IMG/VR virus record: IMGVR_UViG_3300030110_005075
Coordinates: 1 to 29,703 of that record
Direction: 5' to 3' (one strand)
Source: a virus
Length of the DNA stretch: 29,703 nt
Each line of letters begins with the position of its first letter. The stretch's first letter is position 1. Shown piece by piece: positions 5,552 to 29,703 of this stretch. A program made the translations under genes and the position numbers. The notes under the pieces were generated by a model, which ran no database searches, was not told the DNA's origin, and saw only the letters and a list, made by a program, of their open reading frames with translations.

Positions 5552-5745
5552 TCTAAGAAAAACTTAGGATCTTCCGTTACTGGTGCTAAAATTTTTCGGA
5601 GAGCTTCAAACCCTTGACCACGAACCGTGTTCCATTCCTCACGAGTATAGGTCCTATCATAATGAGGATTCCAAAACTTCACCGTAATCATGCCACATTT
5701 TGTGCATTCATGTATCCTTTTTACAGGACTATTAGGCAGTATCAT
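5548..5745 (-). CDS. hypothetical small protein with one CxxC (65 aa)
   Basis: Not recognised. It has a perfect ribosome site (AAGGAGGT) and a near-consensus sigma70 promoter 24 bases upstream, so it is likely strongly expressed early by host polymerase. The single CTKC (14-17) and nearby His and Trp residues (KFWNPHYDRTY) could form half of a zinc site. The end is acidic or hydrophobic (PKFFLD). It contains one copy of the oriented CCGTGNNCC motif. Confidence 0.75.
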   Translation of the reverse strand: MILPNSPVKRIHECTKCGMITVKFWNPHYDRTYTREEWNTVRGQGFEALRKILAPVTEDPKFFLD

Positions 5746-5768
5746 AACTACCTCCTTTTCGGTGCAAT

Positions 5769-5797
5769 ATTATATGATTTTTTATAAGATATGTAAA
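5769..5797 (-). promoter_or_regulatory. near-consensus sigma70 promoter
   Basis: On the - strand TTTACA (5797-5792), a 17-base spacer, then TATAAT (5774-5769). This matches the -35 at 5 of 6 and the -10 at 6 of 6. It drives gene 5548-5745 with a leader of roughly 20 bases. It is the best bacterial promoter I see in the window. Confidence 0.85.
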
Positions 5798-5960
5798 GCC
5801 CCGCAAGAGGACAAATGCGGGGCGAGGAGCGGAAAGTTAGTGATTTAACGGGCCAAATATATGAATAGTGGGAGTCGAACCGCCCGAACCACTTACGCTT
5901 TCACCTCACGATTAAGCCAGGCACTTTCCATTGCCTGTAAAGGTAGGTTCTATCCCGACT
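5798..5960 (-). ncRNA. candidate structured RNA
   Basis: A gene-free stretch rich in hairpins. Read on the - strand: GGATAG-AAC-CTACC near 5953-5941, CAGGCA / TGCCTG near 5937-5918, AGTGG / CCACT near 5893-5869 (its loop holds two GGTTCG units), and GCCCCGC / GCGGGGC at 5823-5798. AGTCGGGA at 5960 could pair with TCCCACT near 5868, closing the unit. The GGTTCGACTCC string resembles a tRNA T arm, but no tRNA fold could be drawn. It lies between the terminator at 5965-5981 and the promoter at 5769-5797. Strand and function are uncertain. Confidence 0.35.
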
Positions 5961-5964
5961 TTAA

Positions 5965-5981
5965 AAGGGTGGCTCACCCTT
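5965..5981 (-). terminator. leftward terminator of the small-gene chain
   Basis: AAGGGTG (5965-5971) and CACCCTT (5975-5981) form a perfect 7-bp stem with a 3-base loop. On the - strand the stem runs into TTTTAA. It lies 17 bases after the stop of gene 5998-6225 and probably ends the leftward operon that begins near 7574. Confidence 0.7.
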
Positions 5982-5997
5982 AAACTCTATAACTGGT

Positions 5998-6225
5998 TTA
6001 CTCATCCGAAATCGTGTAGTTTTTGAAACATTCTGGGTCAAGCGGTGGTCCGTAGTAGATGGTAACATTGTCTTCAATACCTTCGGTCCACGTTTGGTGG
6101 TAGTATTTATTTTCATCGAGTTCCCCTTGTGAGTGACAAACCTTACACTGTTCAATTGATTCCTCTGCTTCAAATAATAATCTGACATATCCATTTCCTT
6201 TGCAGTTGTGACATATCATTACCAA
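5998..6225 (-). CDS. DnaJ-type zinc-knuckle protein (75 aa)
   Basis: Two Cys motifs, CHNCKGNG (C5, C8) and CKVCHSQG (C27, C30), match the CxxCxGxG zinc knuckle of DnaJ. Here they occur alone, without a J domain. Such small knuckle proteins in phages are of unknown role; zinc-dependent protein or nucleic acid binding is likely. The second half is acidic and aromatic (HQTWTEGIEDNVTIYYGPPLDPECF). It has a strong ribosome site (AAGGAG) and a 7-base overlap with the GcrA-like gene upstream. It is last in the leftward chain. Confidence 0.75.
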   Translation of the reverse strand: MVMICHNCKGNGYVRLLFEAEESIEQCKVCHSQGELDENKYYHQTWTEGIEDNVTIYYGPPLDPECFKNYTISDE

Positions 6226-6461
6226 CTCCTTTGATGCGTGTCGTAATACTTTGTAATCTTTTCATGTCTTCTCCTTTTTGGTTTTGAATCTTTAACAGGT
6301 TGATGACCTTTTTTTAATCGGTGTCGGTACATGGCACCTAATACAGAATTCTTACTACGTCCAAAAATAGTACCGATCTGTGAATACGAATACTTTTCTT
6401 TTAGTTTTTCAATGAGATCTAAGTCACGTTGCGTATATTTTTTTTCGAATCTACTTCTCAT
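6219..6461 (-). CDS. GcrA-like helix-turn-helix regulator (80 aa)
   Basis: The first 50 residues resemble the DNA-binding domain of GcrA-type regulators: YTQRDLDLIEKLKEKYSYSQIGTIFGRSKNSVLGAMYRHRL, with the pattern (S/Y)xxQIxxxxGxxxNxVxGxxxRxxL. A basic tail follows (KPKRRRHEKITK). GcrA is a cell-cycle transcription regulator of Alphaproteobacteria that works with sigma70. A phage copy may redirect host transcription or control phage genes. The perfect site AAGGAGGT before the ATG predicts strong translation. ATGA overlap with the 45-codon gene upstream. Confidence 0.75.
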   Translation of the reverse strand: MRSRFEKKYTQRDLDLIEKLKEKYSYSQIGTIFGRSKNSVLGAMYRHRLKKGHQPVKDSKPKRRRHEKITKYYDTHQRSW

Positions 6462-6595
6462 TCGTACCTCCTTATTATAATCTTATGCACCCTCTCCCAT
6501 TGTAGTCTGGTAGCTACCTCTCGACCGTTCCGTGGTTCGCGAAGCGCTTTCAATGATGCTTTTAACTTGCGTAATTTCTTTTCACACTTAGTCAT
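6458..6595 (-). CDS. hypothetical basic small protein (45 aa)
   Basis: A short ORF: ATG at 6595, TGA at 6460-6458 overlapping the start of the GcrA-like gene (ATGA). It begins MTKCEKKLRKLKASLKAL and continues basic (REPRNGREVATRLQWERVHK), probably a helical pair. The phage chain would otherwise have a 140-base hole here. The ribosome site GGGAG lies about 9 bases upstream of the ATG. Not recognised. Confidence 0.6.
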   Translation of the reverse strand: MTKCEKKLRKLKASLKALREPRNGREVATRLQWERVHKIIIRRYE

Positions 6596-6599
6596 CTTT

Positions 6600-6773
6600 C
6601 TATTCTCCCAGTTTAATTAACACACGGCGTAACCATGAGTCTTCTTGTTTTATCTCATAATACAACCAAATACAATAATCATCATCCCCTGGACATGTTC
6701 GCATGAAACTCCAGAACGGGGAAAAGTAAATTAACATCCCCGTAATGATGATCATTGCCAACCATTTATTCAC
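6600..6773 (-). CDS. small membrane protein (57 aa)
   Basis: I chose the GTG at 6773, which overlaps the stop of the DUF6378 gene (GTGAATAA). A TTG at 6797 would give 65 residues. The N-terminal part (MNKWLAMIIITGMLIYFSPFWSF) is one hydrophobic span. Two Cys (TCPGDDDYC) follow, then a helical charged tail (QEDSWLRRVLIKLGE). It could sit in the inner membrane with the Cys pair outside. Not recognised. It may be a host-takeover or lysis-related peptide, but nothing decides this. Confidence 0.6.
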   Translation of the reverse strand: MNKWLAMIIITGMLIYFSPFWSFMRTCPGDDDYCIWLYYEIKQEDSWLRRVLIKLGE

Positions 6774-7032
6774 GGCGTTTAATGATTTCCCCTGCAATTG
6801 CGGCGTAAGCGGCTAGGTCAACATAGCTGTCATGTTTCGTTGCATGCATACTTCTTGCAATCTTTACTAGCCCCATCATAATAGCAACTTGATCAGGACG
6901 AATAGGCGTCTCGAGATACGTGGACCATAAATCAGCAATGCGAGTATGATTCACAAGTTTATCACCGTAGTCTTCGTGACGGTCACCCGCGACTAATTCT
7001 TTTGCTTCTAGTAATATGTCTTCACAAATCAC
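6766..7032 (-). CDS. DUF6378 protein (88 aa)
   Basis: Matches the phage DUF6378 pattern over its whole length: ILLEAKELVAGDRHEDYGD (about 6-24), NHTRIADLWSTYL, PDQVAIMMGLVKIARS, DSYVDLAAYAAIAGEI. All blocks are present and it has typical length. The function of the family is not established. The all-helical, His/Asp/Glu-rich pattern somewhat recalls MazG-type nucleotide hydrolases, which is only a suggestion. The start is GTG at 7032, overlapping the stop of the upstream membrane gene (GTGA). Confidence 0.8.
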   Translation of the reverse strand: MICEDILLEAKELVAGDRHEDYGDKLVNHTRIADLWSTYLETPIRPDQVAIMMGLVKIARSMHATKHDSYVDLAAYAAIAGEIIKRRE

Positions 7033-7196
7033 TGAAGCCTCGCTCTCTCTTCTTGCGAACGCATTCTTTTTTCATAATACCCACGCAGTTTTAACATTTC
7101 TATTTCATCTTCTCTACCTTGCCACCAACGACCGAGATAAAAAACAATGCCCCAAGAAATACCTAAACTTATTAAAGTCCAAAAATCAAGCATCAT
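7029..7196 (-). CDS. small membrane protein with coiled tail (55 aa)
   Basis: A short ORF: ATG at 7196 overlapping the stop of gene 7193-7378 (ATGA), TGA at 7031-7029 overlapping the GTG of the DUF6378 gene. One N-terminal membrane span (LDFWTLISLGISWGIVFYLGRWW) is followed by a charged helix (REDEIEMLKLRGYYEKRMRSQEERARLQ). A small anchored phage protein. No family is recognised. The overlaps at both ends strongly support it as a gene. Confidence 0.65.
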   Translation of the reverse strand: MMLDFWTLISLGISWGIVFYLGRWWQGREDEIEMLKLRGYYEKRMRSQEERARLQ

Positions 7197-7378
7197 GCGG
7201 ACCCCTCTGGTTCTGTTATCGCAAGGTAATGTTCCTCGCCTATTTCATTACCCAAGTCCCATTGAACGCGTACCCAAACATCAATGTTCTCACCACCATG
7301 TTTATCAACGAATTCTTGAGACGTCATCTCTGCAGCATCTTGCTCCATATCCATAAGCCAGTTTTTTACACTACCCAT
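7193..7378 (-). CDS. hypothetical acidic small protein (61 aa)
   Basis: Not recognised. The ribosome site AAGGAGAAG precedes the ATG at 7378 and lies inside the end of the ribbon-helix-helix gene. The protein has an acidic helical first half (NWLMDMEQDAAEMTSQEFVDKHG) and a strand-like second half (IDVWVRVQWDLGNEIGEEHYLAITEPEG). Part of the leftward chain 7574-5998. Confidence 0.65.
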   Translation of the reverse strand: MGSVKNWLMDMEQDAAEMTSQEFVDKHGGENIDVWVRVQWDLGNEIGEEHYLAITEPEGSA

Positions 7379-7574
7379 TTTTCTTCTCCTTATGTTTATT
7401 TACTAACCATACAATCTGATTACTGATGGAACGTAAATCTTTATCTGCTAACTTCTTAAGATCTTTCCACGTATTAAGTGGAACTGTTACAGACTTATAT
7501 TTATCCGTGTTCATAATTTTCCTTTCTGGCCAAAAGACCGTGTGTTTATAAAAAGTAACTAATCTATCTTCCAT
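7371..7574 (-). CDS. ribbon-helix-helix-like DNA-binding protein
   Basis: The C-terminal 47 residues fit a ribbon-helix-helix fold: strand YKSVTVPL, helix NTWKDLKKLADKD, then the turn RSIS and helix NQIVWLVNKHKEK. Arc/CopG-type proteins bind operators as dimers. Two in-frame starts have good ribosome sites: ATG 7574 (AAGGAGAAAGCT) giving 67 residues, and ATG 7514 (AGAAAGGA) giving 47. The longer form has an aromatic N-terminal extension. It is the first gene of the leftward regulatory chain and may autoregulate it. Confidence 0.65.
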   Translation of the reverse strand: MEDRLVTFYKHTVFWPERKIMNTDKYKSVTVPLNTWKDLKKLADKDLRSISNQIVWLVNKHKEKKNG

Positions 7575-7617
7575 AGCTTTCTCCTTAATATAAAAGACAA
7601 TATAAGAATTTATTTTA

Positions 7618-9063
7618 TTAAGTCAACCATTCCTTTAATTCTTCGCCTAAAACTTTTGCGGCAATGTCTATTTTATTTCGAAGACTCTTAACAATCTTTT
7701 CATCAACAGTCTTCTCTGTCATTAAATCAATGTAAGTAACGCTTTTGGCTTGACCAATACGATGCGCTCTATCCTCTGATTGAATTCTTTTTTCTAAATC
7801 GTAGTTGTTAGAATAATAAACAACAGTGCTTGCGGCAGTCAACGTCAAGCCGTAGCCGGCAGTCTGTTGATTACCTACAAAAAATCGCAAGGAATTGTCT
7901 GGATCCTGAAAGCGCTTGACAATCTCTTGCCTTTCCTTATCTGGTGTGTCACCAAAATAAGTTGATACACTATCGACCCCGTATTCCTTTTCTATCTCCT
8001 GTCTGATGTTACGAATATCTTGTCGATAGTTAGCCCATATAATAACTTTTCCATCTGTTTCAGCAAGTATATTCATTAATTCTTTTATACGATTATTTTT
8101 AAATGTCTGGATTTCTCCGTCTTCTCCTGTAAGATGCCCGCAACTAATTTGATGTAGTCGTAATAGTTGTGTCATTACAGTAGGCGCCGTAACCAAACCA
8201 CCCTTCTCAAGTTCTGCTAAAGCAAACTCTTTCATTGTTGAATACGCTTTCTTTTGTTCATCTGATAACTCAACAACTCTCTTCGTATAAACTTTAGGTG
8301 GTAGATCTAAACAATCTTCTTTCAATACTCTATAGGAATAAGGTTCTAACAATCCACTGAGCTCGCCCAAGTTTCGGTAACCAACAACTTTATTAAAGAT
8401 GTGTGTACCAACATTTGTTTTTACTTGAATGCAGTATCTACTTTTAAAACTATAGTAAGAAGAAAATCCTAAGATCGCCGGATCAAGAAATTCACATTGT
8501 GAAAATAAATCAATTGGATCTTTTGTAACAGGAGACCCTGTTAGAATTCTTTTAAACTTTGCAAGTGTACCAAGCTTTAAAATATTTTTTGTTTGTTGTG
8601 CTTTTGGATTTTTTATCGTGGTGCTTTCATCTACTGCCATCAATGCACGATGACCATTTAGAAATTGTTCCGCGAACCGTGCACCCTTAGTCGTACGAAG
8701 CGCTTCAACATTCATTAACAATATGTCAAGCGTCAGATCCTTCGGGTCCCTTATAATACTCTTTAATAATTCTTTCTCTGTCTTATTAGGAGTTGGTGTC
8801 CATGATACAATATAAGGTTCAACGTGATCAGGCAAGTGATTAGGTATCTCTTGTTTCTCCCAGTTACGATACACGCCCTTTGGTGCAATAATAAGAGCAC
8901 CATTAATATAGCCTTGGTCATACAACATAGACATATTATCAATGAGAACTTTCGACTTACCTGTTCCCATTTCCATAAATAAACCATAGGATTCTTTCTC
9001 CCATGACTTTTCTAATGCAGTTTTTTGATGTGCATACGGCACAGTCTTAAATGGATAATCCAT
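7618..9063 (-). CDS. SNF2-family DNA helicase/translocase
   Basis: A compact phage SF2 helicase of 481 residues. Motif I (Walker A) is EMGTGKS (31-37), motif Ia is in LIIAPKGVYRNW, motif II is DEST (145-148) in place of DEAH, and motif III is LTGSP (174-178). The C-terminal RecA lobe has VIIWANYRQDI, GYGLTLTAAS near 403 and motif VI QSEDRAHRIGQ (about 428-438), the SNF2 signature. Such proteins use ATP to move on duplex DNA and in phages belong to replication or recombination modules. It is transcribed leftward, divergent from the rest of the replication genes, with an AAGGAGAAG ribosome site. It contains one oriented CCGTGNNCC motif. Confidence 0.93.
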   Translation of the reverse strand: MDYPFKTVPYAHQKTALEKSWEKESYGLFMEMGTGKSKVLIDNMSMLYDQGYINGALIIAPKGVYRNWEKQEIPNHLPDHVEPYIVSWTPTPNKTEKELLKSIIRDPKDLTLDILLMNVEALRTTKGARFAEQFLNGHRALMAVDESTTIKNPKAQQTKNILKLGTLAKFKRILTGSPVTKDPIDLFSQCEFLDPAILGFSSYYSFKSRYCIQVKTNVGTHIFNKVVGYRNLGELSGLLEPYSYRVLKEDCLDLPPKVYTKRVVELSDEQKKAYSTMKEFALAELEKGGLVTAPTVMTQLLRLHQISCGHLTGEDGEIQTFKNNRIKELMNILAETDGKVIIWANYRQDIRNIRQEIEKEYGVDSVSTYFGDTPDKERQEIVKRFQDPDNSLRFFVGNQQTAGYGLTLTAASTVVYYSNNYDLEKRIQSEDRAHRIGQAKSVTYIDLMTEKTVDEKIVKSLRNKIDIAAKVLGEELKEWLT

Positions 9064-9158
9064 AACTTCTCCTTGTTTTTTTAATTATTCTTTCTAAAGA
9101 TGCATTTAATGCTTGATTTATTTTTTTGCAAGGACTAAATGGAGGAAGGAGAAAGCTT
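9064..9158. promoter_or_regulatory. divergent intergenic region of the replication module
   Basis: 95 bases between the SNF2 helicase and the rightward replication genes. It is T-rich, and leftward promoters could lie in the AT tract. Rightward, TTGATT with a 17-base spacer before TAAATG (about 9112-9140) is a weak promoter candidate. It ends in GGAGGAAGGAGAAAGCT, a strong ribosome site. The box AGGAGAAAGCT recurs at 9473-9483 and, inverted, at 7575-7585. Confidence 0.4.
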
Positions 9159-9464
9159 ATGACAGTTTATGTAGTACAAGAAAAACCAGGAGTAGATATG
9201 ACCGATGCTCTTCGCTTTGGTGATTTCCAAGAGTTATTACCAAGAAAAGATCAATTGGTTATTAGTTCTAAGCCTGTTATTCACTCTCTCAGAAAAAAAC
9301 TTAGAGACTTTTCTGATGAGGACTATATATTATGTCTAGGTGATCCATCCATCATTGCTGTAGTAGCAGCGGTGGCATCTGATTTAAATCGCGGTAGATT
9401 TAAATTACTTAAATGGGATCGTAGATTAGAAAAATATTATCCCGTGGAGGTAAACATTAACTAA
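9159..9464 (+). CDS. hypothetical phage protein of replication module (101 aa)
   Basis: The start is ATG 9159, with a very strong ribosome site. An upstream TTG at 9126 is less likely. The protein has strands and a hydrophobic core (TVYVVQEKPG; DQLVISSKP; DEDYILCLGDPSIIAVVAAVASDLNRGRFKLLKWDRR). The block YILCLGDPSIIAVVAAVA followed by a basic end is of a sort I associate with small phage proteins next to replication genes. It has no recognised catalytic motif. It precedes the coiled-coil and SSB-like genes and is probably cotranscribed with them. Confidence 0.75.
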   Translation: MTVYVVQEKPGVDMTDALRFGDFQELLPRKDQLVISSKPVIHSLRKKLRDFSDEDYILCLGDPSIIAVVAAVASDLNRGRFKLLKWDRRLEKYYPVEVNIN

Positions 9465-9485
9465 ACAAATATAGGAGAAAGCTAT

Positions 9486-10037
9486 ATGTCATTATTTGAA
9501 GAAACTAAAAAAAATATCGATGACTTTAAACAGTCAGGCGATGATCGGTTACGAACTTTAGGAGAGCGTTGTGAAGACCTTGAAGAAGTACGTGAAGATA
9601 TAAAGACAGCGAAAGCAAAATTAAAAGCTTTAGAAGAAGATCAATTCAAATTAGAAAATGAATCTATTCCAACATTGCTAGAGGAATTGAATATGAAGTC
9701 TGTTACACTTACAACAGGAACAAAAGTTTCTGTAGAAGAAGTATATAAGGCACATATAAGTGAAGACAATAAATCCGATGCGTTTGCATGGTTAAGAGAA
9801 AATGGGTTTGACGATATAATTAAAAATGATATTGTCGTGACCTTTGGAAGAGGAGAAGAAGATAACGCTTCTGAATTGTATCAGAGATTGCGCGATGAAG
9901 GGCAAGCTCCAATACAAAAGAGCGGTGTTCATGCCTCTACCTTAAAAGCTTTTGTTAAGGAGCAAATACAAAAAGGTGTTGATTTGCCCCAAGACAAATT
10001 TGGTGTCTATGTAACCAACAAAGTGAAAATTACATAG
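9486..10037 (+). CDS. coiled-coil phage protein of replication module (183 aa)
   Basis: Not firmly recognised. Residues about 25-70 form an acidic/basic heptad-like coiled coil (ERCEDLEEVREDIKTAKAKLKALEEDQFKLENE). After it comes a conserved-looking domain: VTLTTGTKVSVEEVYKAHIS, DAFAWLRENGFDDIIKNDIVVTFGRGE, then GVHASTLKAFVKEQIQKG and FGVYVTNKVKI. This arrangement recurs in phages next to SSB-like genes, which makes a role in replication or recombination likely. The ribosome box AGGAGAAAGCT is the same as in the previous gene. It is cotranscribed with the SSB-like gene 28 bases downstream. Confidence 0.7.
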   Translation: MSLFEETKKNIDDFKQSGDDRLRTLGERCEDLEEVREDIKTAKAKLKALEEDQFKLENESIPTLLEELNMKSVTLTTGTKVSVEEVYKAHISEDNKSDAFAWLRENGFDDIIKNDIVVTFGRGEEDNASELYQRLRDEGQAPIQKSGVHASTLKAFVKEQIQKGVDLPQDKFGVYVTNKVKIT

Positions 10038-10065
10038 TGAAACTTGAAAACTGAAAGAGGAAATT

Positions 10066-10860
10066 ATGGCGAAGAATGCTATGACGACTAAGAAAGAAAC
10101 AAAAGTGTTAGCAGAGGTTATCCCTTTTGAAAACTTTGGATCAATGGGTTTTGATACTATTGATACACAAGACTACGCTACACCAAGGCTTAAAGCTTTG
10201 ATGGCATTATCTCCAGAGGTACAGGATGAGACTGTTCCTGGAGCAAAGGCTGGCATGATATACAACAGCGTGACAGAAGAATTGTACAGTGGTGAGACTG
10301 GCATTCGTGTAATCCCTTGTGGTTTCGCAAGAGAATACGTTGAATGGTCTAACATTGGTACAGGATCTAATGCACCTGTTAATGTCTATCCCGCAACTTC
10401 AGATATTCTCTCACAAACAACGAGAGACAATATGAATAAAGATAGACTGGAGAATGGTAACTACATTGAAACATGTGCTAATCATTTTCTTTATGTTCTA
10501 AATGACAACGAGGCATCTTCAGGAATGCTAGGTGCACCTTGTGTTATCACACTCAAATCAACAGGGTATAAACGAAGTAAGAAATTTAATTCTCTTATTC
10601 GTTCCGTGATCCCTTCTGCGTGGCCAATGTTTTCTGGTATCTTTAAAGTTACCACAACAAAACAGAAAAACGACAAAGGAACATGGCACTCTTTTGATTT
10701 CGCTTTCGATCGACTACTCGATCAAGGTAATGAAAAGGACATTGCGATCTTTAATTCTGCGAAAACTTTTGCTGAAACCGTTTCAAAGGGTGAGGCTAAA
10801 ATATCACAGGAAAGAGGAGAAGGCAATGCGACTACGACGGAAGAAGCTGTTCCGTTTTAG
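10066..10860 (+). CDS. putative single-stranded DNA-binding protein
   Basis: A 264-residue protein between the coiled-coil gene and the primase. The body is beta-rich with aromatic and basic residues (ALMALSPEVQDE, GIRVIPCGFAREYVEW, FLYVLNDNEASSG, APCVITLKSTGYKRSKKFNSLIRS, WHSFDFAFDR). The end is acidic and finishes TTTEEAVPF, like the SSB C-terminal tip (DDDIPF) that recruits replication proteins. The block on CVITLKSTGYKRSKKFN is typical of phage SSB-like proteins of unknown name. The call rests on tail and context, not on a proven OB fold. A strong terminator follows. Confidence 0.65.
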   Translation: MAKNAMTTKKETKVLAEVIPFENFGSMGFDTIDTQDYATPRLKALMALSPEVQDETVPGAKAGMIYNSVTEELYSGETGIRVIPCGFAREYVEWSNIGTGSNAPVNVYPATSDILSQTTRDNMNKDRLENGNYIETCANHFLYVLNDNEASSGMLGAPCVITLKSTGYKRSKKFNSLIRSVIPSAWPMFSGIFKVTTTKQKNDKGTWHSFDFAFDRLLDQGNEKDIAIFNSAKTFAETVSKGEAKISQERGEGNATTTEEAVPF

Positions 10861-10867
10861 GTAGCGA

Positions 10868-10917
10868 AGAGGGGGCCCCAAATCCTCCGTGGTAAGAACC
10901 GGGGCCCTCTTTTATTT
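10868..10917 (+). terminator. terminator after the SSB-like gene
   Basis: AGAGGGGGCCCC (10868-10879) pairs with GGGGCCCTCT (10901-10910), leaving two bulged G, with a 21-base loop and a TTTATTTT tail. It ends the transcript 9159-10860 and should lower expression of the primase behind it. This would fit high SSB and low primase demand. Confidence 0.85.
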
Positions 10918-10928
10918 TAAAGGGTGTT

Positions 10929-12524
10929 ATGAACGTAGAAAAATTTATAGAAATATTTTCAGGATTAGAAAGAGCCTATGGTTCTTATGAACCTGACGGA
11001 AATGTAAGATCGGATGGTAAAAAAGGCGGTAAAGCTTTTATTAACAAACGAGAAGTTACAAAAGAATTATGGGTTAATCATTTACAAGGAAAACAAAGTT
11101 TAGGAATTATACCAATCACAGACAACTCTACTTGTAGATGGGGATGCATTGATATTGATGTGTATGAAGGTTTTGATCACAGCGTATTAATTAAACAAAT
11201 AGAAAAAAATAAATTACCTGTTGTTGTTTGCAGATCAAAGAGCGGCGGTGCACATATATTTATTTTTACTACTGAACCAATCTCTGCAAAATTAATGCGA
11301 TTAAAACTTCATGAGTTTAGAGCTCTTCTTAATTACGGAGATGCAGAAGTTTTTCCAAAACAAACAGAATTGGATACAGAGAGAGGAGACACAGGTAACT
11401 TTTTAAACCTTCCTTACTTTGATGGAGATAGATCGGTGCGTTATGGTTTTAACGGAAAAGCTGAATCGTTATCAGTAGATGAGTTTATAGATTTTGTTCA
11501 AACAAAAATAATTTCAGAGAAAGATTTAAAATCATTTAAGTTAAAAAAAAGAAAAACAAAAGAAGAACCAGAGGGCTTACTAGCAGATGGTCCACCTTGT
11601 TTACAAGGCTTGGCTCAAGATAAAATTCAAAAAGGAATGCGCAATGAATGTATGTTTCAATATTCTGTTTATGCAAAAAAGAAATGGGCAAATGAAAACT
11701 GGCAAAGTAAGGTGCACAGTTTTAACACATTAGAAAACTTCACAGAAATTTTAGACTACAGAGAAACTGATACTGTTATCAAAGAACAAGAGAAAAAAGA
11801 TTACGGATATAAATGTAAAACAGAACCATTTAAAGGACGATGTAATAGAACAGAATGTCGTGCTCGTAAGTGGGGTATTGGTGATTTCTTTGAACCACAG
11901 ATTTCTGGTTTACAAAAATATGAAACAGATGATCCTCAATGGTATTTAAACTTTACAATTTACACTGATGAAGGAGAAGAGGTTAGACGAATTAAATGCA
12001 ATACAGAAGAATTATTTGATCAAAGAAAATTTAGAAAAAAGTGTATGGATGTTTTAACTGTGTTACCTGATGCAATGGGTGGAGACGACTGGACTAAAAA
12101 ACTACAGACGTTGATGGCTGATGCAGATGTAATTAAAATGGAAGAAGAAATATCTAAGGGCGGTCAGTTTGATCAACACTTAAAATCTTTCTTAACAGAT
12201 CAGGGTATCTCTGATGATGTAAGAGATCTATTAGTTGGTAATCCTGTTCGTAAAAGAATTAATATTAAAAACGATGAAGATCAAACAGAAGAGATTGATG
12301 CTATCTTGTTTAATCCAAAAGATGTTGTTGATTATTGTACAAAGAAAAAGTTTACATCACTAGATCAAACAAGAATGATATTAAGAATAAAAGAATCTTT
12401 TAAAGGAGATAGTCATAAACTTAGTGTTGATAATAATAAAAAATATGTTTGGTTTGTTCCTGATAATTTTCAAAAACCTAAAGATATTGAGATACCGGAT
12501 ATGAAGAAAGCAGAACCGTTTTGA
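10929..12524 (+). CDS. archaeo-eukaryotic-type (AEP) DNA primase
   Basis: A 531-residue primase of the AEP/PrimPol superfamily, close in layout to the TOTE-type primases. Motif I is CIDIDVY (D75, D77, metal binding), motif II is SGGAH (105-109) and motif III falls in VFPKQTELDTERGDTGNFLNLPYFD (about 141-165). The next block GPPCLQGLAQDKIQKGMRNE and the Cys set C296, C305, C310 form the zinc-like accessory part usual in these enzymes. It makes primers for the polymerase below. The C-terminus DMKKAEPF resembles the SSB tip. The stop TGA overlaps the TTG start of the helicase, so the two are coupled. Confidence 0.88.
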   Translation: MNVEKFIEIFSGLERAYGSYEPDGNVRSDGKKGGKAFINKREVTKELWVNHLQGKQSLGIIPITDNSTCRWGCIDIDVYEGFDHSVLIKQIEKNKLPVVVCRSKSGGAHIFIFTTEPISAKLMRLKLHEFRALLNYGDAEVFPKQTELDTERGDTGNFLNLPYFDGDRSVRYGFNGKAESLSVDEFIDFVQTKIISEKDLKSFKLKKRKTKEEPEGLLADGPPCLQGLAQDKIQKGMRNECMFQYSVYAKKKWANENWQSKVHSFNTLENFTEILDYRETDTVIKEQEKKDYGYKCKTEPFKGRCNRTECRARKWGIGDFFEPQISGLQKYETDDPQWYLNFTIYTDEGEEVRRIKCNTEELFDQRKFRKKCMDVLTVLPDAMGGDDWTKKLQTLMADADVIKMEEEISKGGQFDQHLKSFLTDQGISDDVRDLLVGNPVRKRINIKNDEDQTEEIDAILFNPKDVVDYCTKKKFTSLDQTRMILRIKESFKGDSHKLSVDNNKKYVWFVPDNFQKPKDIEIPDMKKAEPF

Positions 12525-14059
12525 CCACTAAAAAAATATTCGGGCCTCCTGGCACAGGTAAGACACATACTCTTTTAAGTATTGTAGAAGAAGCTTTAGA
12601 TAATGGAATAGAACCAAATAAAATTGGATACTTTTCTTTTACACAAAAAGCAGCGAAGGAAGCTATCTCGCGAGCCGTGAACCGTTTTCCACAATATGAT
12701 AAAAAAGATTTTAAATATTTTAGAACGTTACACAGTTTAGCGTACATAGAGCTCGGTCTTGGAAATGATTCAATGATGGATGACGATGATTACAAAGAGC
12801 TTTCTGATAAATTAAATATAAAAGTTTCTAATCCTAATCAAAAATTAAAACAGTACGGAGTTAGTTGGCAAGATGATGCGTACTTACAGATTTATGATTT
12901 ATCTCGTATCAAACAAGTTAGCCTTGAACATCAATTCATGCAACCTGACACACCGTTTTTAAAAGATGGAGAAATTAAATTAAGAAAAATTGCTCGGGGC
13001 TTTGAACAGTATAAAAAAGATAATAAATTCATGGACTTCACAGACATGATTATAGAGTACACAAAAAGAAAACTGTCACCGCACTTTGAAGTTTTAATTA
13101 TTGATGAGGCTCAAGATCTTAGTAGCATTCAATGGGATATGGTAGAGCTACTATCACGTTCTTCTAAATCTGTTTATATTGCGGGGGATGATGACCAAGC
13201 AGTTTTTAAATGGGCGGGCGCAAGCCCAGAAAGATTTCTTAGATTAAAAGGTGAGCAAGTTATTTTAAATCAATCGTACCGTGTTCCGTTAGCCGTGCAA
13301 GAAAAAGCGGTAAACATTATAAATAGAATTCCTGAAAATGAACGTGTTATGAAAAATTGGAACCCTCGTGATTTTCAAGGACTTTACAAAAAACACAACA
13401 CTGTTTTCTTTAATAATTTTAATTTACATAATAATGATTGGTTAATTTTAGCTAGAACTAAATATCATTTAGATAACGTAGAAAAAGAATTAAAAAAAAC
13501 AGGAGTATATTATTCTCGTTACGATAAAAAATCTATTTCTGATCGGTTGCTAAATGCAATTATTTCATGGACTGATATTACAAGGGGAAAATCAGTGTCT
13601 TTAAAATCAGTAAAAGATATGTACAGTTACATGAAAGTGGACGAAGATGTTGCTCATGGGTTCAAAACAATGCCTAGAGCGTTAGATACAGCGCAATATA
13701 CATACGAAGATTTAAAAAATAACTATGGATTACTTGCAAAAAAGGATATGATATGGCGAGAATCAATGTCTGATATATCAGACAGTAAAGCACAATATGT
13801 AAAAAAAATGTTGGAGAATAAACAAAATTTAAAAAAAGATCCTGAAGTACGTCTTTCCACCATACACGCTTCAAAAGGAGGTCAGGCGTCAAACGTTTTA
13901 TTATTTTCTGATCTATCTTCAAAAGCAGACAGTTCATATAAACGAAATAAAAGTGATGAAAGAAGAGTTTTTTATGTAGGAATGACAAGAGCAAAAGAAC
14001 AACTGCACGTAGTTCGTTCAGAAACAATGTACGAGTTTGGAGAATTGTTTTGGAATTAA
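12521..14059 (+). CDS. UvrD/Rep-type SF1 DNA helicase
   Basis: A 512-residue superfamily 1 helicase. Motifs: I GPPGTGKT (8-15), Ia YFSFTQKAAKEA (about 37-48), II IDEAQD (194-199), III GDDDQAVFKWAG (222-233), IV NQSYR (250-254), V STIHASKGGQASNVLLF (about 447-463), VI VGMTRAKEQLHV (about 486-497). UvrD-like enzymes unwind 3' to 5'. It probably acts as the replicative or recombination helicase with the primase, with which it is coupled (TTG start in TTGA). It is shorter than UvrD itself, as expected for phage members. It contains two oriented CCGTGNNCC motifs. Confidence 0.93.
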   Translation: MTTKKIFGPPGTGKTHTLLSIVEEALDNGIEPNKIGYFSFTQKAAKEAISRAVNRFPQYDKKDFKYFRTLHSLAYIELGLGNDSMMDDDDYKELSDKLNIKVSNPNQKLKQYGVSWQDDAYLQIYDLSRIKQVSLEHQFMQPDTPFLKDGEIKLRKIARGFEQYKKDNKFMDFTDMIIEYTKRKLSPHFEVLIIDEAQDLSSIQWDMVELLSRSSKSVYIAGDDDQAVFKWAGASPERFLRLKGEQVILNQSYRVPLAVQEKAVNIINRIPENERVMKNWNPRDFQGLYKKHNTVFFNNFNLHNNDWLILARTKYHLDNVEKELKKTGVYYSRYDKKSISDRLLNAIISWTDITRGKSVSLKSVKDMYSYMKVDEDVAHGFKTMPRALDTAQYTYEDLKNNYGLLAKKDMIWRESMSDISDSKAQYVKKMLENKQNLKKDPEVRLSTIHASKGGQASNVLLFSDLSSKADSSYKRNKSDERRVFYVGMTRAKEQLHVVRSETMYEFGELFWN

Positions 14060-14241
14060 AAGAATTTAAAAAACATACAAGAACAACTCTGCGTGGTGTT
14101 CAAGAATGCCTATATAAACTGCCCCAACTTAAACGTCCTGATGTTGAGCGCTATCTAAAACTGGCGGTATTAGATTTGCAACTTGTGCTTAATGAAATAC
14201 GGGCGTTGGAAAGTAAATATGGCGAAGAAAAAAAGAAGTAA
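14050..14241 (+). CDS. hypothetical basic helical protein (63 aa)
   Basis: Starts on TTG at 14050, inside the end of the helicase gene, with GGAG 7 bases upstream. It is helical and basic (MELKEFKKHTRTTLRGVQECLYKLPQLKRPDVERYLKLAVLDLQLVLNEI, ending EEKKK). Its 3' end overlaps the polymerase start by 23 bases. The overlaps on both sides support a real gene in the replication operon. A role as helicase or polymerase accessory is only suggested by location. Confidence 0.65.
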   Translation: MELKEFKKHTRTTLRGVQECLYKLPQLKRPDVERYLKLAVLDLQLVLNEIRALESKYGEEKKK

Positions 14242-16846: not shown

Positions 16847-16852
16847 TAGCTT
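16836..16852. terminator. weak bidirectional hairpin at convergent gene ends
   Basis: AAGCTA (16836-16841) and TAGCTT (16847-16852) with loop CTTAA span the stop codons of both convergent genes. There is no good U-run on either side, so it is at most a weak terminator between the rightward replication block and the leftward virion block. Confidence 0.35.
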
Positions 16853-17039
16853 GATCTATTTTATCATTAATAGCTACAACATTCGCTTCAATGACCGAGA
16901 GCCGTGCATCGATACGCAACATATCTAAATCTTTTATTTTACTTTCATTAGCAATGACTCTATTTACTAACATACCATAACTATAAATGACAGTTATGCC
17001 TGCGATTATTATTGCAGTAATGTTAATTTTAGATTTCAT
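16839..17039 (-). CDS. small membrane-anchored coiled-coil protein (66 aa)
   Basis: ATG 17039 (a TTG lies at 17045). An N-terminal span (INITAIIIAGITVIYSYGMLV) is followed by a coiled-coil-like helix (NRVIANESKIKDLDMLRIDARLSVIEANVVAINDKIDQAI). This design occurs in phage lysis and ejection accessory proteins (holin- or spanin-like), but no family is recognised. It overlaps the preceding virion gene by 11 bases and is last in the leftward virion operon. Late expression, and hence a lysis role, is plausible but unproven. Confidence 0.65.
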   Translation of the reverse strand: MKSKINITAIIIAGITVIYSYGMLVNRVIANESKIKDLDMLRIDARLSVIEANVVAINDKIDQAIK

Positions 17040-23891: not shown

Positions 23892-23892
23892 A

Positions 23893-24921
23893 TTAACCAA
23901 ACATTCTACTTAATCCCAACGCACTAATACCAAGACCAGCAATTTGAGATAATGGATTTACGGGAGGAGCTTGATCACCATAAGTAATACTAGAATAACT
24001 AGAAGGCTGGCCTGTAAGTATATCACTAGCAAAACCGAGTCTAGTGAATGGCTCCATTTCTTGTTGCTCTGCAGTTTTTCTTGCAGCATCAAGACCCGCT
24101 TGAGCAATTTGTTGTTGTAGCCCACCAATACCAAGAAGAGAACTAGAGTCTGTTAAGTTCGCTCTTTGGAAATCTAATCCAAGACCTGCTTGTCCAGCAC
24201 CTAGTGTACCTAATCCTTGACCTAATTGACCGAACCGTGAACCGATAGCCCCAAGACCTTGTCCAATAGAACCTAATCCTTGACCGGCCATTAGTTGTCG
24301 TTGCTTATCTCTTTGAGCGTTTGCTAAAGCTTGATTGAAACCTGATTGTTGCGCTTGACCAATTTGTCGTAAAGTTCCTTCATCTATACCTGCTTCAACA
24401 ACACCTAAACGTGAACCGCCAAATGCGCCCGCTTGTTGCGCTTTTGAAGCTGCCTGTGTCTTCATGATGTCACCTTGTCTTTTTATTTCATCGGTGACCG
24501 CTGCTTGATATGGATTAAAATACTGACTTATATCTTGCCCTGTAATTCCTGTAGCACCTTGACCAAACATCTGTGCGCCTTGACCTAGTTGCTGTGCACC
24601 CTGTGCAAAGAAAGGAGTTCCGGCTAATGCTGCACCAACACCACTTTGTAATGTTCCTTGTGCTTGTTGTAAGAAAGGAGCAAAGCCCCCTAATCCTTGA
24701 CGTGTTCTTTGAAAAGCATCTATTTGATCTTGGTTTAATCCAGCAATGCTATATTGCGGTACTTGTCTAGAAACACCAGCTCTACCAAAACGACGTAAAT
24801 TAAATTGTTCGTCTGTTTCTCCTTGTTGTCTTGTAGCGTTTGGATCACCAAATACGCTTGCAAGAAGTTGTTCACTTCTCTCTTCTATATAGGGAGCTTG
24901 TCTAACTACTGTTTCACTCAT
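23893..24921 (-). CDS. Gly/Gln-rich virion protein (342 aa)
   Basis: A low-complexity protein with repeated GQG / LGxxGQGLG units (about 105-125 and 210-250), many Gln and Ala, and almost no Trp or Cys. Residues about 155-205 are a Gln/Ala-rich helix (IMKTQAASKAQQAGAFGGSRLGVVEAGIDEGTLRQIGQAQQSGFNQALANAQRDKQRQ, in parts). The composition and place recall the small internal core proteins of T7-like phages (gp14-like), an analogy only. The start ATG 24921 overlaps the previous stop (TAATGAG). It contains one oriented motif and one near-match. Confidence 0.72.
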   Translation of the reverse strand: MSETVVRQAPYIEERSEQLLASVFGDPNATRQQGETDEQFNLRRFGRAGVSRQVPQYSIAGLNQDQIDAFQRTRQGLGGFAPFLQQAQGTLQSGVGAALAGTPFFAQGAQQLGQGAQMFGQGATGITGQDISQYFNPYQAAVTDEIKRQGDIMKTQAASKAQQAGAFGGSRLGVVEAGIDEGTLRQIGQAQQSGFNQALANAQRDKQRQLMAGQGLGSIGQGLGAIGSRFGQLGQGLGTLGAGQAGLGLDFQRANLTDSSSLLGIGGLQQQIAQAGLDAARKTAEQQEMEPFTRLGFASDILTGQPSSYSSITYGDQAPPVNPLSQIAGLGISALGLSRMFG

Positions 24922-26144: not shown

Positions 26145-26273
26145 AATCTCCTAGTAATGCATTATCTTAATGTAGCAAGGAGGCAAAACTTGAAACGTGA
26201 GCCAATTTAATCCTATATTTATAGGCAAATAATTGCTATATGACAATAGATATTTGCAAGTAGAAAGGAAACC
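26145..26273. promoter_or_regulatory. divergent promoter region with palindromes
   Basis: Between the leftward virion operon and the rightward oxygenase block. Rightward promoter candidate: TTGAAA (26190-26195), an 18-base spacer, TATATT (26214-26219). A palindrome CCTATATTTATAGG (26212-26225) covers the -10, and an overlapping imperfect one (26221-26239, core GCAA-ATAA-TTGC) lies just after it. Both are possible operator sites. The CAAGTAGAAAG box at 26257-26267 supplies the ribosome site of gene 26274. Confidence 0.55.
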
Positions 26274-26936: not shown

Positions 26937-27205
26937 ACATAGACAAAGTACCAATGGTTCGTGTGACGTGGTTAGATGCCCGTGATACAGAAACAGGGTG
27001 GCTCGATATAAAAGAAGTTATTAGTGCACCTTTAGCCGTGTGCCAAGAAGTAGGGTGGATGATTCATAATGGTGAGGAAAGAATAGTTATTATGCGTTCA
27101 TATAGTAAAGATAAAGATGATATTACAGGTGGGGGCGCGATAGCCATACCAAAGGGATGGTTAAAGAAAATAGAGTATTTAAAAGTAGATTATGCAACAC
27201 AATAA
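26933..27205 (+). CDS. conserved-looking hypothetical phage protein (90 aa)
   Basis: Not named. ATGA overlap with the oxygenase gene. The body reads like a small beta barrel: VRVTWLDARDTETGWLDIKEVISAP, a helix or strand with CQEVGWMIHNGEERIVIMRSY, then GGGAIAIPKGWLKKIEYL. Small proteins of this kind are frequent in marine phages with unknown role. It sits between the two oxygenases and overlaps both, so it may be an accessory of them. It contains an oriented CCGTGNNCC motif. Confidence 0.72.
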   Translation: MNIDKVPMVRVTWLDARDTETGWLDIKEVISAPLAVCQEVGWMIHNGEERIVIMRSYSKDKDDITGGGAIAIPKGWLKKIEYLKVDYATQ

Positions 27206-27704
27206 AAAAACAAAGTTTGTCATGTATGTTGATGATTTTTTAGATAAAGATACGTTAAAGTCACTTCAAGATACAGTCACAAACCTTGAGTATCAAGAAG
27301 TAAAAAATCCTAATGGTCAATTGTATGGCATGCGTCATACTTTTGATAAAGGTATTCATAATGATCCATTAGTAAAATTAATTAAACAGTATTTCTTTCC
27401 ACATAGAAACCTTGAACCAATATCCGTGAGTGCACATTTACGAGAGAATAATAAAGAACCTTTATTTCACACTGATGATGATAAAGGTAATGTTGCTAAC
27501 TTTCTTTTGTTTGTAAAAGGAGAACCTTTGCTTAATAATGGTACAGGTTTTCTATATAACGAGAAGTTATCTTCACATATAGGTTTTGTAGAAAACAGAG
27601 CTTTATTTTTTAATGGCTCAAAAATATCACATTCGGATTTGCAATCTTTTGGAGATAGCTCTAATAGATATACACTTAATATTTTTTATAAAGATGCAGA
27701 CTAA
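27192..27704 (+). CDS. second putative 2OG-Fe(II) oxygenase (170 aa)
   Basis: A smaller, different double-stranded beta-helix protein. Candidate Fe ligands are H93-x-D95 (FHTDDD) and H147 (KISHSDLQ). Arg159 (NRYTLNIFY) would bind 2-oxoglutarate. The strand pattern between them (VANFLLFVKGEPLLNNGTGFLYN, GFVENRALFFNG) fits the fold. The substrate is unknown. The start ATG 27192 lies in the end of the previous gene, and the end overlaps the glycosyltransferase start by 11 bases, so all four genes are tightly coupled. Confidence 0.75.
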   Translation: MQHNKKTKFVMYVDDFLDKDTLKSLQDTVTNLEYQEVKNPNGQLYGMRHTFDKGIHNDPLVKLIKQYFFPHRNLEPISVSAHLRENNKEPLFHTDDDKGNVANFLLFVKGEPLLNNGTGFLYNEKLSSHIGFVENRALFFNGSKISHSDLQSFGDSSNRYTLNIFYKDAD

Positions 27705-28482
27705 AGTATTTATTGGAACTCCTTGTTATGGTGGGATGATAACAGCCGATTACTTTAAAAGCTGTTTACAACTTACAGCTTTGGCCGCACAAAAAAAAGT
27801 AGAATTACAATTTGGAACTATTGGTAATGAGTCTTTGGTGACAAGAGCTCGTAACACATTGGTGCAATTATTTATGGATGACCCACAATATACTCATCTT
27901 TTATTTATTGATGCTGATTTAGCTTTTGATCCTGAGTCTGTGTTTCGTATGTTGGATTTAGATGAAGATGTGGTGACAGGAGTCTATCCTCGTAAAACTA
28001 TTGATTGGACTAAAGTAAAAAGAAAAGTAAAAGAAAAACCAGATATATCGGAAGACGAACTTCATGCAGCGTCGTTGCAGTATAATTTAAATGTTAAAGA
28101 TTCAAAAAAAATAATTGTAAAAAAAGGTTTTATTGAAGTATTGGATGGTGCTACAGGTTTCATGTTAATAAAAAGAAACGTATTTAAAAAAATGGCTTTA
28201 GCTTATCCTGATTTAAAGTTTACACCAGACCAACATATCGGTTCTCCACACGATAAAACTTTTAATTATCATGACACATCTCATTGGAATTACGCTTTTT
28301 TTGATACAATGATAGATCCTGATACAAATAGATATTTGTCAGAAGATTACGCTTTTTGTCGTTTATGGCAGAAAATAGGAGGTAAAGTTTATGCTGATAT
28401 AGTGAGTGGTATTACTCATTACGGGAATTATTCATTCAAGGGCAACGTAGGCACTCAATTCTTGCCACAAAACAATAAATAA
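27694..28482 (+). CDS. glycosyltransferase, GT-A type (262 aa)
   Basis: A nucleotide-sugar transferase with the opening KVFIGTPCYGGMITADYFKSCLQL, VTRARNTLVQLF (49-60) and the metal-binding DxD in LLFIDADLAFDPESV (DAD 73-75). Then comes DVVTGVYPRKTIDW, GFIEVLDGATGFMLIKRNVF and YLSEDYAFCRLWQKIGGKVYAD, usual acceptor-side blocks of the phage GT-A / Anp1-like group. I use ATG 27694 as start, overlapping the oxygenase stop; a longer frame from 27613 has no support. It could glycosylate a virion protein, phage DNA bases or a host surface sugar. The adjacent virion gene favours the first. Confidence 0.85.
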   Translation: MQTKVFIGTPCYGGMITADYFKSCLQLTALAAQKKVELQFGTIGNESLVTRARNTLVQLFMDDPQYTHLLFIDADLAFDPESVFRMLDLDEDVVTGVYPRKTIDWTKVKRKVKEKPDISEDELHAASLQYNLNVKDSKKIIVKKGFIEVLDGATGFMLIKRNVFKKMALAYPDLKFTPDQHIGSPHDKTFNYHDTSHWNYAFFDTMIDPDTNRYLSEDYAFCRLWQKIGGKVYADIVSGITHYGNYSFKGNVGTQFLPQNNK

Positions 28483-28498
28483 TTTAGTATACTCCGAC

Positions 28499-29703
28499 AT
28501 GAAATTAGTCGATTTAAAGTTTCAACCAGGTATAGATAAACAAGACACTGCTTATTCAGCGGGAGATCAACGTAAATATGTTGATTCCGACTTTGTTAGA
28601 TTCCACTATGGTAAGCCTGAAAGATGGAAAGGCTGGTCATATTTACCAAATCCTAATAAAACTATTGTGGGCGTGGTCCGTGATACGCACAGCTGGGTTG
28701 GTTTAGACGGAATAAGATATCTAGCTTTAGGAACTGATAGAAAATTATATATCTACACTGAAGGAGCCTTGTATGACATTACACCCCTACGTGACACGGA
28801 AGCTCTGACAAATCCTTTTACAACAAATGGCACAACTACAGTGTCAGTGGCTGATGCTGCACATGGAGCTGCAGTTGGTGATTTTGTTACCTTTGATTCT
28901 TTTTCAACAATAGATGGTTTAGATATGAATCAAGAGTTTGAAATTACATCAGTGACAAGTGCAAGTGCTTACACTGTTACACATACTAGCACTGCTTCTG
29001 GTTCTACATCAGGTGGTGGAGGATCAGGTAACGCTAAATATCAAATAACCACAGGCCCTTCTACATCTACATATGGATATGGTTGGGGAACCTTAACTTG
29101 GAACACTAGCACTTGGAACACACCAAGATCATCTTCAGGTGTTGTTTTATCAGCTCGTCAATGGTCTTTAGATAATTTTGGTGAAGATTTAATTGCAACG
29201 GTTTTAAATGGTGGAACATTTATTTGGGATACTTCAGGTGGAACTGGAGTTAGAGCAACTGCTCTATCTAACGCTCCTACTGCGTCTAGATTTAGTATAG
29301 TTTCAACTGATACAAGGCATTTACTTATATTTGGAACAGAGACAACAATAGGTGATCCTACTACACAGGATGATTTATTATTTAGATTTTCTGATAGAGA
29401 AGATGCAACTGATTATACACCTGTATCTACTAATGAAGCAGGCTCATTACGTATATCAGACGGTTCTAGAATTATGGGAGCTGTTAAATCTTCTGGTCAG
29501 ATACTCCTATGGACCGACACTTCTATGCACGGTATTCAATTTGTTGGTACACCTTTTACTTTTGGTCTTAGACAACTTGGTGCGAACTGCGGGTTAATAG
29601 CACAACATGCAGCTATAGAAGTTAATGGTAGAGCATATTGGATGTCTGATGATTCTTTTTATATGTATGATGGTGTTGTTAAAAAAATGCCATGTTCCGT
29701 GCA
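28499..29703 (+). CDS. virion structural protein, 3' end outside window
   Basis: Open from ATG 28499 to the last base without stop, 401 codons seen. The start MKLVDLKFQPGIDKQDTAYSAGDQ, then YVDSDFVRFHYGKPERWKGW, is a pattern I know from structural (tail or neck-like) proteins of marine phages. After it come repeated beta-type stretches: GLDGIRYLALGTDRKLYIYTEGALYDITP, a Ser/Thr/Gly-rich insert with GSTSGGGGSG (about 170-180), VVLSARQWSLDNFGEDLIATVLNGGTFIWD and RAYWMSDDSFYMYDG, suggesting a beta-propeller-like fold. No Shine-Dalgarno is visible. It ends inside a likely oriented motif, GTTCCGTGCA. Confidence 0.8.
   Translation, partial: MKLVDLKFQPGIDKQDTAYSAGDQRKYVDSDFVRFHYGKPERWKGWSYLPNPNKTIVGVVRDTHSWVGLDGIRYLALGTDRKLYIYTEGALYDITPLRDTEALTNPFTTNGTTTVSVADAAHGAAVGDFVTFDSFSTIDGLDMNQEFEITSVTSASAYTVTHTSTASGSTSGGGGSGNAKYQITTGPSTSTYGYGWGTLTWNTSTWNTPRSSSGVVLSARQWSLDNFGEDLIATVLNGGTFIWDTSGGTGVRATALSNAPTASRFSIVSTDTRHLLIFGTETTIGDPTTQDDLLFRFSDREDATDYTPVSTNEAGSLRISDGSRIMGAVKSSGQILLWTDTSMHGIQFVGTPFTFGLRQLGANCGLIAQHAAIEVNGRAYWMSDDSFYMYDGVVKKMPCSV

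Follow-up and report, generated by a model that had tools for sequence, protein, structure and literature searches.

The DNA analysed here (the window, 29,703 nucleotides) comprises bases 1–29,703 of a 38,358-base IMG/VR virus record (IMGVR_UViG_3300030110_005075), and the element under study is a short word, CCGTGNNCC, dispersed over one of its strands. The word was found to be the junction of two units in a tandem array that is degenerate and repeats every 7 bases, and it is nearly certain that oriented arrays of this kind, phased by seven bases and with an overall polarity, exist in this phage and its relatives. Five features were computed directly from the sequences: the 7-base period, an enrichment that exceeds what codon choice accounts for, an orientation shared by most arrays, the retention of that orientation in an inverted gene block, and a mostly opposite polarity between the genes for TerL and TerS (terminase small subunit). 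An earlier note had described CCGTGNNCC as a strand-oriented dispersed motif, independent of gene direction and codon phase, and had likened it to single words such as Chi, KOPS or DNA-uptake sequences. That it is a real, selected DNA signal with these properties is supported; the likeness to a single word is not, because the word belongs to a phased multi-unit heptad array, the polarity of which mostly reverses between TerL and TerS, in phages that encode a ribbon-helix-helix (RHH) protein. The 7-base period seen in the flanks displaces a single Chi/KOPS-type word as the leading explanation, and such a word is retained below as a rival.

Among the phages searched, the polA of the window matched best those of 023Pt_psg01, DSL-LC04 and the Pelagibacter phages HTVC023P and HTVC027P (47–56% identity); the phage is therefore in or near the HTVC023P-type group. 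Relatives were assigned to clades by polA identity (A, 70–100%; B, about 62%; C, about 60%). Single-word scans covered 71 records, the pentamer ranking 16 uncultured phage records and 4 named phages, and every record was turned such that the late genes (TerL, portal, TerS and ejection genes) lie on the − strand.

The nine + strand copies and zero − strand copies of CCGTGNNCC claimed earlier were recovered in the window, and the whole record showed no equalisation (likewise 9:0). Dinucleotide shuffles of the window (n = 100) gave a mean of 0.60 copies for both strands summed and a maximum of 3; shuffling of synonymous codons within genes (300 shuffles) gave expected values of 0.56 on + and 0.25 on −, and no shuffle reached 9. 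The strand skew of CCGTG, put at about 25 versus 8 by the note, was 26 on + and 8 on − in the window; for the whole record the ratios (+:−) were 31:9 for CCGTG and 32:10 for one-mismatch forms. Five copies lie in leftward open reading frames (ORFs) and four in rightward ones, and their codon phase varies, as had been noticed, since seven is not a multiple of three.

The motif was also found in the relatives. CCGTG or its complement ranked first of 1024 pentamers against a synonymous-codon null in 8 of the 16 uncultured records: CCGTG in G000 (31 versus 10.3 expected), G003, G007, G015, G021 and G033, and CACGG, the complement, in G032 and G030. CCGTG was at rank 5 in G028, CACGG and CCGTG were at ranks 13 and 16 in G026, and on the strand opposite TerL the pentamer ranked 13 in G054, 4 in G055, 39 in G056, 3 in G057, 8 in G058 and 25 in G060. 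DSL-LC04 had CCGTG at rank 3 and CACGG at rank 17; the complement on the expected strand was at most mildly raised in HTVC023P (12/8.1 observed/expected, rank 117), HTVC027P (10/5.0, rank 20) and 023Pt (15/10.8, rank 138). CCGTGNNCC was commoner on + in 38 of the 43 listed records, with ratios of, for instance, 9:0, 5:1, 9:2, 6:1 and 8:3 in clade A, 3:0, 3:0 and 3:0 in B, and 7:2, 3:1 and 5:1 in C; the five exceptions were G024 and G039 (1:1 each), G034 (0:1), HTVC027P (0:0) and DSL-LC04 (10:15). Over 42 uncultured records of at least 10 kb the ratio was 155:27. The head genes of clade A were without CCGTG enrichment (14/10.4 and 15/10.9), which begins at TerS and extends rightwards.

The 7-base period was apparent from the flanks of CCGTG, in which the same letters recur every seven bases. 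In clade A, CC followed CCGTG 37 times at +7 (2.7 expected), 22 times at +14 (2.1), 14 times at +21 (3.8) and 9 times at +28 (1.2); at +7 the values were 11 versus 1.1 expected in clade B and 20 versus 3.5 in clade C. The unit approximates C-C-G-Y-G-N-N, of which the C at place 2 and the G at place 5 are the most constant across clades. When all 1024 pentamers were combined with lags of 5–30, the top pair was CCGTG at lag 7 in clades A (22 versus 2.3 expected) and C (16 versus 1.1), and CCGAG at lag 7 in clade B (13 versus 1.1); five control phages, of which Pan1, VpKK5 and Pag-Yong1 were partial genomes, had no excess at lag 7 over the same range.

Arrays of four units were scanned for in 15 hand-chosen representative records (491 kb; near relatives, G041 (1:3), G027 (1:1) and G040 (4:0) excluded), yielding 145 at period 7 and 16, 4, 4, 7 and 3 at periods 5, 8, 10, 11 and 13. 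The 119 + and 26 − arrays compare with means of 19.0 and 9.2 in 12 synonymous shuffles, and 113 of the 119 on + and 22 of the 26 on − have more than 90% of their length within script-called ORFs. The 42 uncultured records, near relatives included, held 288 + and 66 − arrays at period 7 and 42, 16, 15, 34 and 14 arrays at the same five control periods. A control with permuted cores was not clean: the best of 29, GGTCC, gave 93 arrays versus 115 for CCGTG, which we attribute to the same arrays being matched in a shifted phase. Runs of CNNG were also considered as a strand-blind universal core and were rejected, being weak in the record of the window (1 run of three at spacing 7, 1 expected). Eight of the nine CCGTGNNCC copies of the window lie within four-unit arrays and the copy at 24235 was recovered by the five-unit scan only. 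The arrays and related features of the window are:

362–389, +: heptad array GCGCGCC CCGCTTA CCGGGGC CCGCTTC (array scan, score 12.1)
1708–1735, +: weak heptad array (array scan, score 9.7)
1872–1899, −: the sole − strand array kept in the record after strand competition, left of TerS (score 10.2)
4628–5116, −: terminase small subunit; array polarity changes beside the gene (PHROGs match and polarity map)
5442–5469, +: heptad array TTTCGCA CCGTGAT TCGAACC CCATGAA (array scan)
5618–5645, +: heptad array CCACGAA CCGTGTT CCATTCC TCACGAG with the CCGTGNNCC copy 5625 (word count and array scan)
6530–6557, +: heptad array CCGTGGT TCGCGAA GCGCTTT CAATGAT (array scan)
6904–6931, +: heptad array AGGCGTC TCGAGAT ACGTGGA CCATAAA, at threshold (score 9.5)
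7374–7514, −: RHH (Arc/CopG-like) protein of 47 aa, candidate reader; a longer ORF spans 7371–7574 (Pfam, PHROG and profile)
7618–16120, no strand assigned: SNF2-helicase-to-polA block, which clade C and the cultured phages carry the other way round; the arrays inside it follow the genome-wide orientation (gene maps)
8670–8697, +: heptad array CCGCGAA CCGTGCA CCCTTAG TCGTACG in the SNF2-like helicase gene, with copy 8677 (word count and array scan)
10604–10631, +: heptad array CCGTGAT CCCTTCT GCGTGGC CAATGTT with copy 10604 (word count and array scan)
12668–12695, +: heptad array TCGCGAG CCGTGAA CCGTTTT CCACAAT in the UvrD-like helicase gene, with copy 12675 (word count and array scan)
13272–13299, +: heptad array AATCGTA CCGTGTT CCGTTAG CCGTGCA in the UvrD-like helicase gene, with copy 13279 (word count and array scan)
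16888–16915, +: heptad array TCAATGA CCGAGAG CCGTGCA TCGATAC (array scan)
18305–18332, +: heptad array CAAAGTA CCGTGAT CCGTTTT TCATGCC with copy 18312 (word count and array scan)
19001–19028, +: heptad array CCGCGCC TCCTCTA CCAAGAA CCAAGAA (array scan)
20300–20327, +: heptad array CCGTGTC CCGTGCT GGTTTAT CCACGTA with copy 20300 (word count and array scan)
24235–24269, +: CCGTGAA CCGATAG CCCCAAG ACCTTGT CCAATAG with copy 24235 (five-unit scan, absent from the four-unit list)
26959–26986, +: heptad array TCGTGTG ACGTGGT TAGATGC CCGTGAT (array scan)
27022–27049, +: heptad array TAGTGCA CCTTTAG CCGTGTG CCAAGAA with copy 27036 (word count and array scan)
28671–28698, +: heptad array GCGTGGT CCGTGAT ACGCACA GCTGGGT (array scan)

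Synonymous codon conservation among the clade A representatives was raised at the arrays of both helicase genes. The two arrays of the UvrD-like gene taken together scored 0.784 versus 0.624 gene-wide, and the array at 13272–13299 shares codons with three of the six 9-codon windows in which that gene has its highest synonymous conservation; for the array of the SNF2-like gene the value was 0.683 versus 0.538 gene-wide.

The arrays have a preferred direction. In the 15 representatives 119 of 145 lay on the strand opposite the late (TerL-side) genes, and + arrays outnumbered − arrays in 39 of 42 records (the others being G027 at 1:1, G060 at 4:4 and G041 at 1:3). The SNF2-helicase-to-polA block, which is inverted between clades, offers a natural experiment in which the direction of the genome can be told apart from that of the genes: polA and the late genes point in opposite directions in clades A and B, whereas in clade C and the cultured phages most late genes have the direction of polA. 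Relative to polA, the strand bias of the motif flips between clades because of this inversion. Within the block, CCGTG opposite the late genes numbered 48 versus 15.8 expected in clade A, 27 versus 7.3 in B and 32 versus 16.7 in C (six, five and five records), and on the late-gene strand 18/13.0, 7/9.1 and 6/8.7, respectively. The word is thus enriched opposite the late genes in all three clades, and the signal in primase, UvrD and polA is sense in A and B and antisense in C. The block arrays on the polA strand and its opposite were 24:5 in A and B together and 0:17 in C (Fisher 1.5e-8, with sites shared between relatives), or 31:10 and 3:38 at a laxer cut-off. Gene direction as the cause of array orientation is ruled out by the inverted block. 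The inversion itself separates clades of HTVC023P-like phages.

A polarity map around TerS, made from 13 records (G000 and G003 each counted on a single side of TerS), gave +86/−5 arrays from 0 to +30 kb and +4/−19 from −6 to 0 kb; further left the numbers were +3/−3 from −8 to −6 kb and +11/−1 from −14 to −8 kb. The stretch of reversed polarity approximates the interval between TerL and TerS, where the reversal is found mostly and not always. In DSL-LC04 this interval carries CCGTGAA CCGTGGG CCGGTGG CCGTGAT CCCTGGG CCGTGGG CCGTGGC CCGCGCG, and in HTVC027P it carries runs of GCTTGNN (CAAGC/GCTTG heptads) in place of CCGTG. The differing core words, GCTTG and CCGTG, of these two phages suggest that word and reader co-vary. 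The long heptad arrays span 39.9–41.1 kb in HTVC027P and 14.5–14.9 kb in DSL-LC04 (TerL on −). By eye, no long contiguous array was seen in the TerL–TerS interval of the clade to which the window belongs. At 1631–1839 of the window several TACGTTTTGTG-like copies are spaced 11 bases apart, possibly as iterons or an operator, and similar CTAAACGTACACA repeats were seen by eye in the TerL–TerS interval of relatives.

The best candidate for a reader of the arrays is the phage's own RHH protein, encoded at 7374–7514 (−), and we put the chances of its binding them at about even. It is named because of a precedent: omega RHH dimers bind 7-bp repeats. In plasmid pSM19035, each omega dimer binds one 7-bp repeat, and ParA is fully activated only by at least four repeats in a row (PMC9499535). 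The features of an omega/parS-type system that are found here are tandem non-palindromic 7-bp units and an RHH gene on the same replicon. With E-values up to 1 allowed throughout, an Arc-like repressor PHROG was hit by 7 of 11 homologues (best 7e-5), and the Pfam families RHH_5, RHH_4 and MatP_C by 4 each (best 2e-5); residues M1, K5, K7, S8 and V9 are invariant in the 11 sequences. A profile match to the archaeal-virus AvtR structure 4hv0 had an E-value of 0.019. Profile matches were obtained in clades A, B (G038 only; most clade B records lack the RHH region in their sequence) and C, in G057/G058, HTVC023P, HTVC027P and 023Pt; in each record matched the gene is on the late-gene strand, 2–5 kb from TerS. 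No match was obtained in the five control phages or in G056, which also had no clear period-7 excess.

We infer, with confidence evenly divided, that the degenerate heptad arrays, best preserved at the CCGTGNNCC junctions, are read by the RHH protein. Each array would then be a binding site occupied by one dimer per 7 bp, and binding would be cooperative, as for plasmid omega on parS. Loading or operator sites would be strongest in the dense TerL–TerS arrays, such as the contiguous heptads of DSL-LC04 and HTVC027P, and weaker in the dispersed arrays. A weaker step of the argument is that the shared direction of the arrays would reflect a protein–DNA complex that must meet, in one direction, a genome-long process starting at the terminase region. 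That process could be packaging, entry or replication, rather than local transcription, and we are unsure which of them the polarity serves. More tentatively still, and at less than even confidence, the arrays may constitute a phage-wide polarity code: RHH-read arrays selected to point away from the terminase region, carried on the other strand of the same genes after block inversion and directing a genome-long process (packaging, entry or replication), as a viral counterpart of KOPS and Chi built from parS-like arrays. If this is true, phages that are widespread in the sea label their genomes with a direction, in a DNA code that overlies protein genes. The code would track the genome and not the genes upon block inversion, a clear viral case of selection on genome-level polarity, and it would come with a testable reader protein, linking plasmid-type heptad centromeres to phage genome handling.

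Several observations weigh against RHH-read arrays and a polarity code. The Pfam match of the window protein (RHH_5, E 2e-4) is under the curated cut-off, and the family matches of its homologues are weak. The AlphaFold monomer is of low confidence (pLDDT 69, pTM 0.35), with two main helices in the expected places and no strand, and a Foldseek search with this model gave no match. DSL-LC04 has a clear array, yet its RHH profile match is only at E 1.5; 023Pt has the RHH protein and few arrays (+5/−1 versus 0–4 at control periods), with no CNNG run at spacing 7. Synonymous conservation was not in clear excess at the arrays of the SSB-like gene (0.62 versus 0.59, including 10604–10631), nor in excess at those of the Dtrans gene (0.51 versus 0.55). 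Orientation is not uniform (G041 1:3, G027 1:1, G060 4:4, G030 5:4). The weights and cut-offs of the array scan were chosen manually once the data had been inspected, and the counts and P values do not represent independent events because relatives have homologous sites in common. An apparent period-8 signal in 023Pt was set aside as a GAGC run of period 4; in 023Pt_psg01, at 44.3 kb (TerL on −), a GAGC tetranucleotide run adjoins TerS.

Other explanations were weighed against the same data. The heptads could be read by TerS, with the dense TerL–TerS array as pac and the dispersed arrays tuning the initiation or termination of packaging. The contiguous arrays of DSL-LC04 and HTVC027P, and the change of polarity there, are in favour of this, and the pac site of phage P1 also has short repeats; but a pac site is normally single, the dispersed arrays are mostly opposite in polarity to those at the terminase, and the window's clade showed by eye no long contiguous array in the interval. 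We regard terminase recognition as unlikely. Chi-like sites, GGNNCACGG on the TerL strand, would let host RecBCD/AddAB halt degradation of the phage DNA end beside the terminase cut, much as in lambda Chi next to cos stops nuclease degradation of a DNA end. The orientation is indeed fixed over the greater part of the genome irrespective of the genes, and enrichment that starts at TerS and runs rightwards, with none in clade A head genes, would suit one exposed end. An octamer-like single word does not, however, predict 7-base phasing over at least 28 bases or the reversed TerL–TerS polarity, and the two cultured phages of Pelagibacter HTCC1062 have a mild excess at most (12/8.1, rank 117; 10/5.0, rank 20). 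Rather than a single short word without a phased array, the data show phasing to +28 that the period controls lack. A Chi/KOPS-like word is not the best description because of the phased heptads and the polarity reversal, and this account is distinctly improbable in our estimate.

Sites of transcriptional silencing or pausing, oriented against transcription like mycobacteriophage stoperators, have in their favour that clade C + arrays are mostly in leftward genes (37 versus 8) and that stoperators too are dispersed, asymmetric and oriented (PMC9283540). The dispersed asymmetric sites are present here, but their location is not intergenic (113 of 119 + arrays are inside ORFs, whereas stoperators occupy short intergenic spaces) and their orientation does not follow transcription: in clades A and B the inverted block has its arrays mostly (24:5) on the polA strand, the sense strand of primase, UvrD and polA and the antisense strand of SNF2. 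We consider such sites quite unlikely. Strand bias from restriction avoidance is very improbable: the 36 EcoP15 sites of T7 do share one orientation (PMC3874151), but avoidance predicts one-way sites without enrichment, and here a 16-fold enrichment (9 versus 0.56 expected) is phased by seven. Chance, codon usage or a protein motif is less credible still; some sites are homologous and lie in conserved peptides, but the synonymous shuffles, the period controls, a period not divisible by three and the recurrence of the signal in diverged clades lead us to reject it.

The proposed RHH-read arrays resemble known systems in part. Chi and KOPS are strand-oriented octamers tolerated in coding sequence, but they are single chromosomal words without 7-base phasing, whereas the phage polarity switches at the terminase genes. 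The AIMS are likewise single strand-oriented octamer words of chromosomes, tolerated in coding sequence and without 7-base phasing (PMC7537859). In the omega/parS system a small RHH protein reads six sites, each made of several 7-bp repeats (WATCACW) that are non-palindromic and contiguous, and the parS complement WGTGATW has GTGA in common with the phage CCGTGA; parS differs in overlapping promoters, in mixed repeat orientation and in its ParA partner, whereas the phage arrays are dispersed, degenerate, mostly intragenic and mostly one-way (PMC9499535). Mycobacteriophage L5 has more than 20 asymmetric protein sites of fixed orientation across its genome, but these stoperators are 13-mers that follow the direction of transcription and lie in promoters and short intergenic spaces, and not intragenic 7-base arrays oriented with the genome (PMC9283540). 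The GGGAATC heptamers of Xanthomonas are also dispersed tandem 7-nt repeats in prokaryote genomes; unlike the coding, one-way phage arrays they are under-represented in coding regions, alike on both strands (84 and 102 in one genome) and G-quadruplex-forming (PMC4692102). Periodic dinucleotides represent a selected intragenic periodicity, some lytic phages included, for which a binding partner has been proposed, but with a period of about 10–11 bp and genome-wide, in contrast to a period of 7, a defined GC-rich word and discrete arrays (PMC7537859). The T7 EcoP15 sites are all in a single orientation, which is attributed to escape from type III restriction, with no phasing described there (PMC3874151). 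Finally, AvtR, SvtR and F55 of archaeal viruses are virus-encoded RHH proteins, and for AvtR and SvtR it has been suggested that they start at a strong site and extend along the DNA, but they act at promoters and the consensus sites given are not 7-base arrays (PMC5569661). In the literature on pelagiphages and their motifs, oriented Chi (including AddAB/SAR11), heptads and RHH proteins, and AIMS/KOPS in phages, from which subscription journals were mostly absent, we recognised no description of such arrays.

A host search gave no evidence of a host among 299 genomes (the phylum of a Klebsiella genome) or 59 genomes (the order of one of these, G205; partly the same genomes), and two bacterial genomes with polA matches included no usable host. 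The order of G205 is not SAR11, because genomes in that order are mostly larger; a rhodopsin search, positive in 11 of 398 genomes, yielded no confirmed SAR11 genome. Directly after the window, from 29,704, where the note had predicted CC, the record has a scaffold gap of ten N, inside a stretch matching the stabilisation protein of DSL-LC04. A small ORF at 6219–6461 has a weak Pfam HTH_23 match (E 0.05) and appears GcrA-like by eye. The protein encoded at 10066–10860 is of the Pam3_Gp34 family and may be a phage single-stranded DNA-binding protein; its C-terminus, EEAVPF, we take to resemble an SSB tail.

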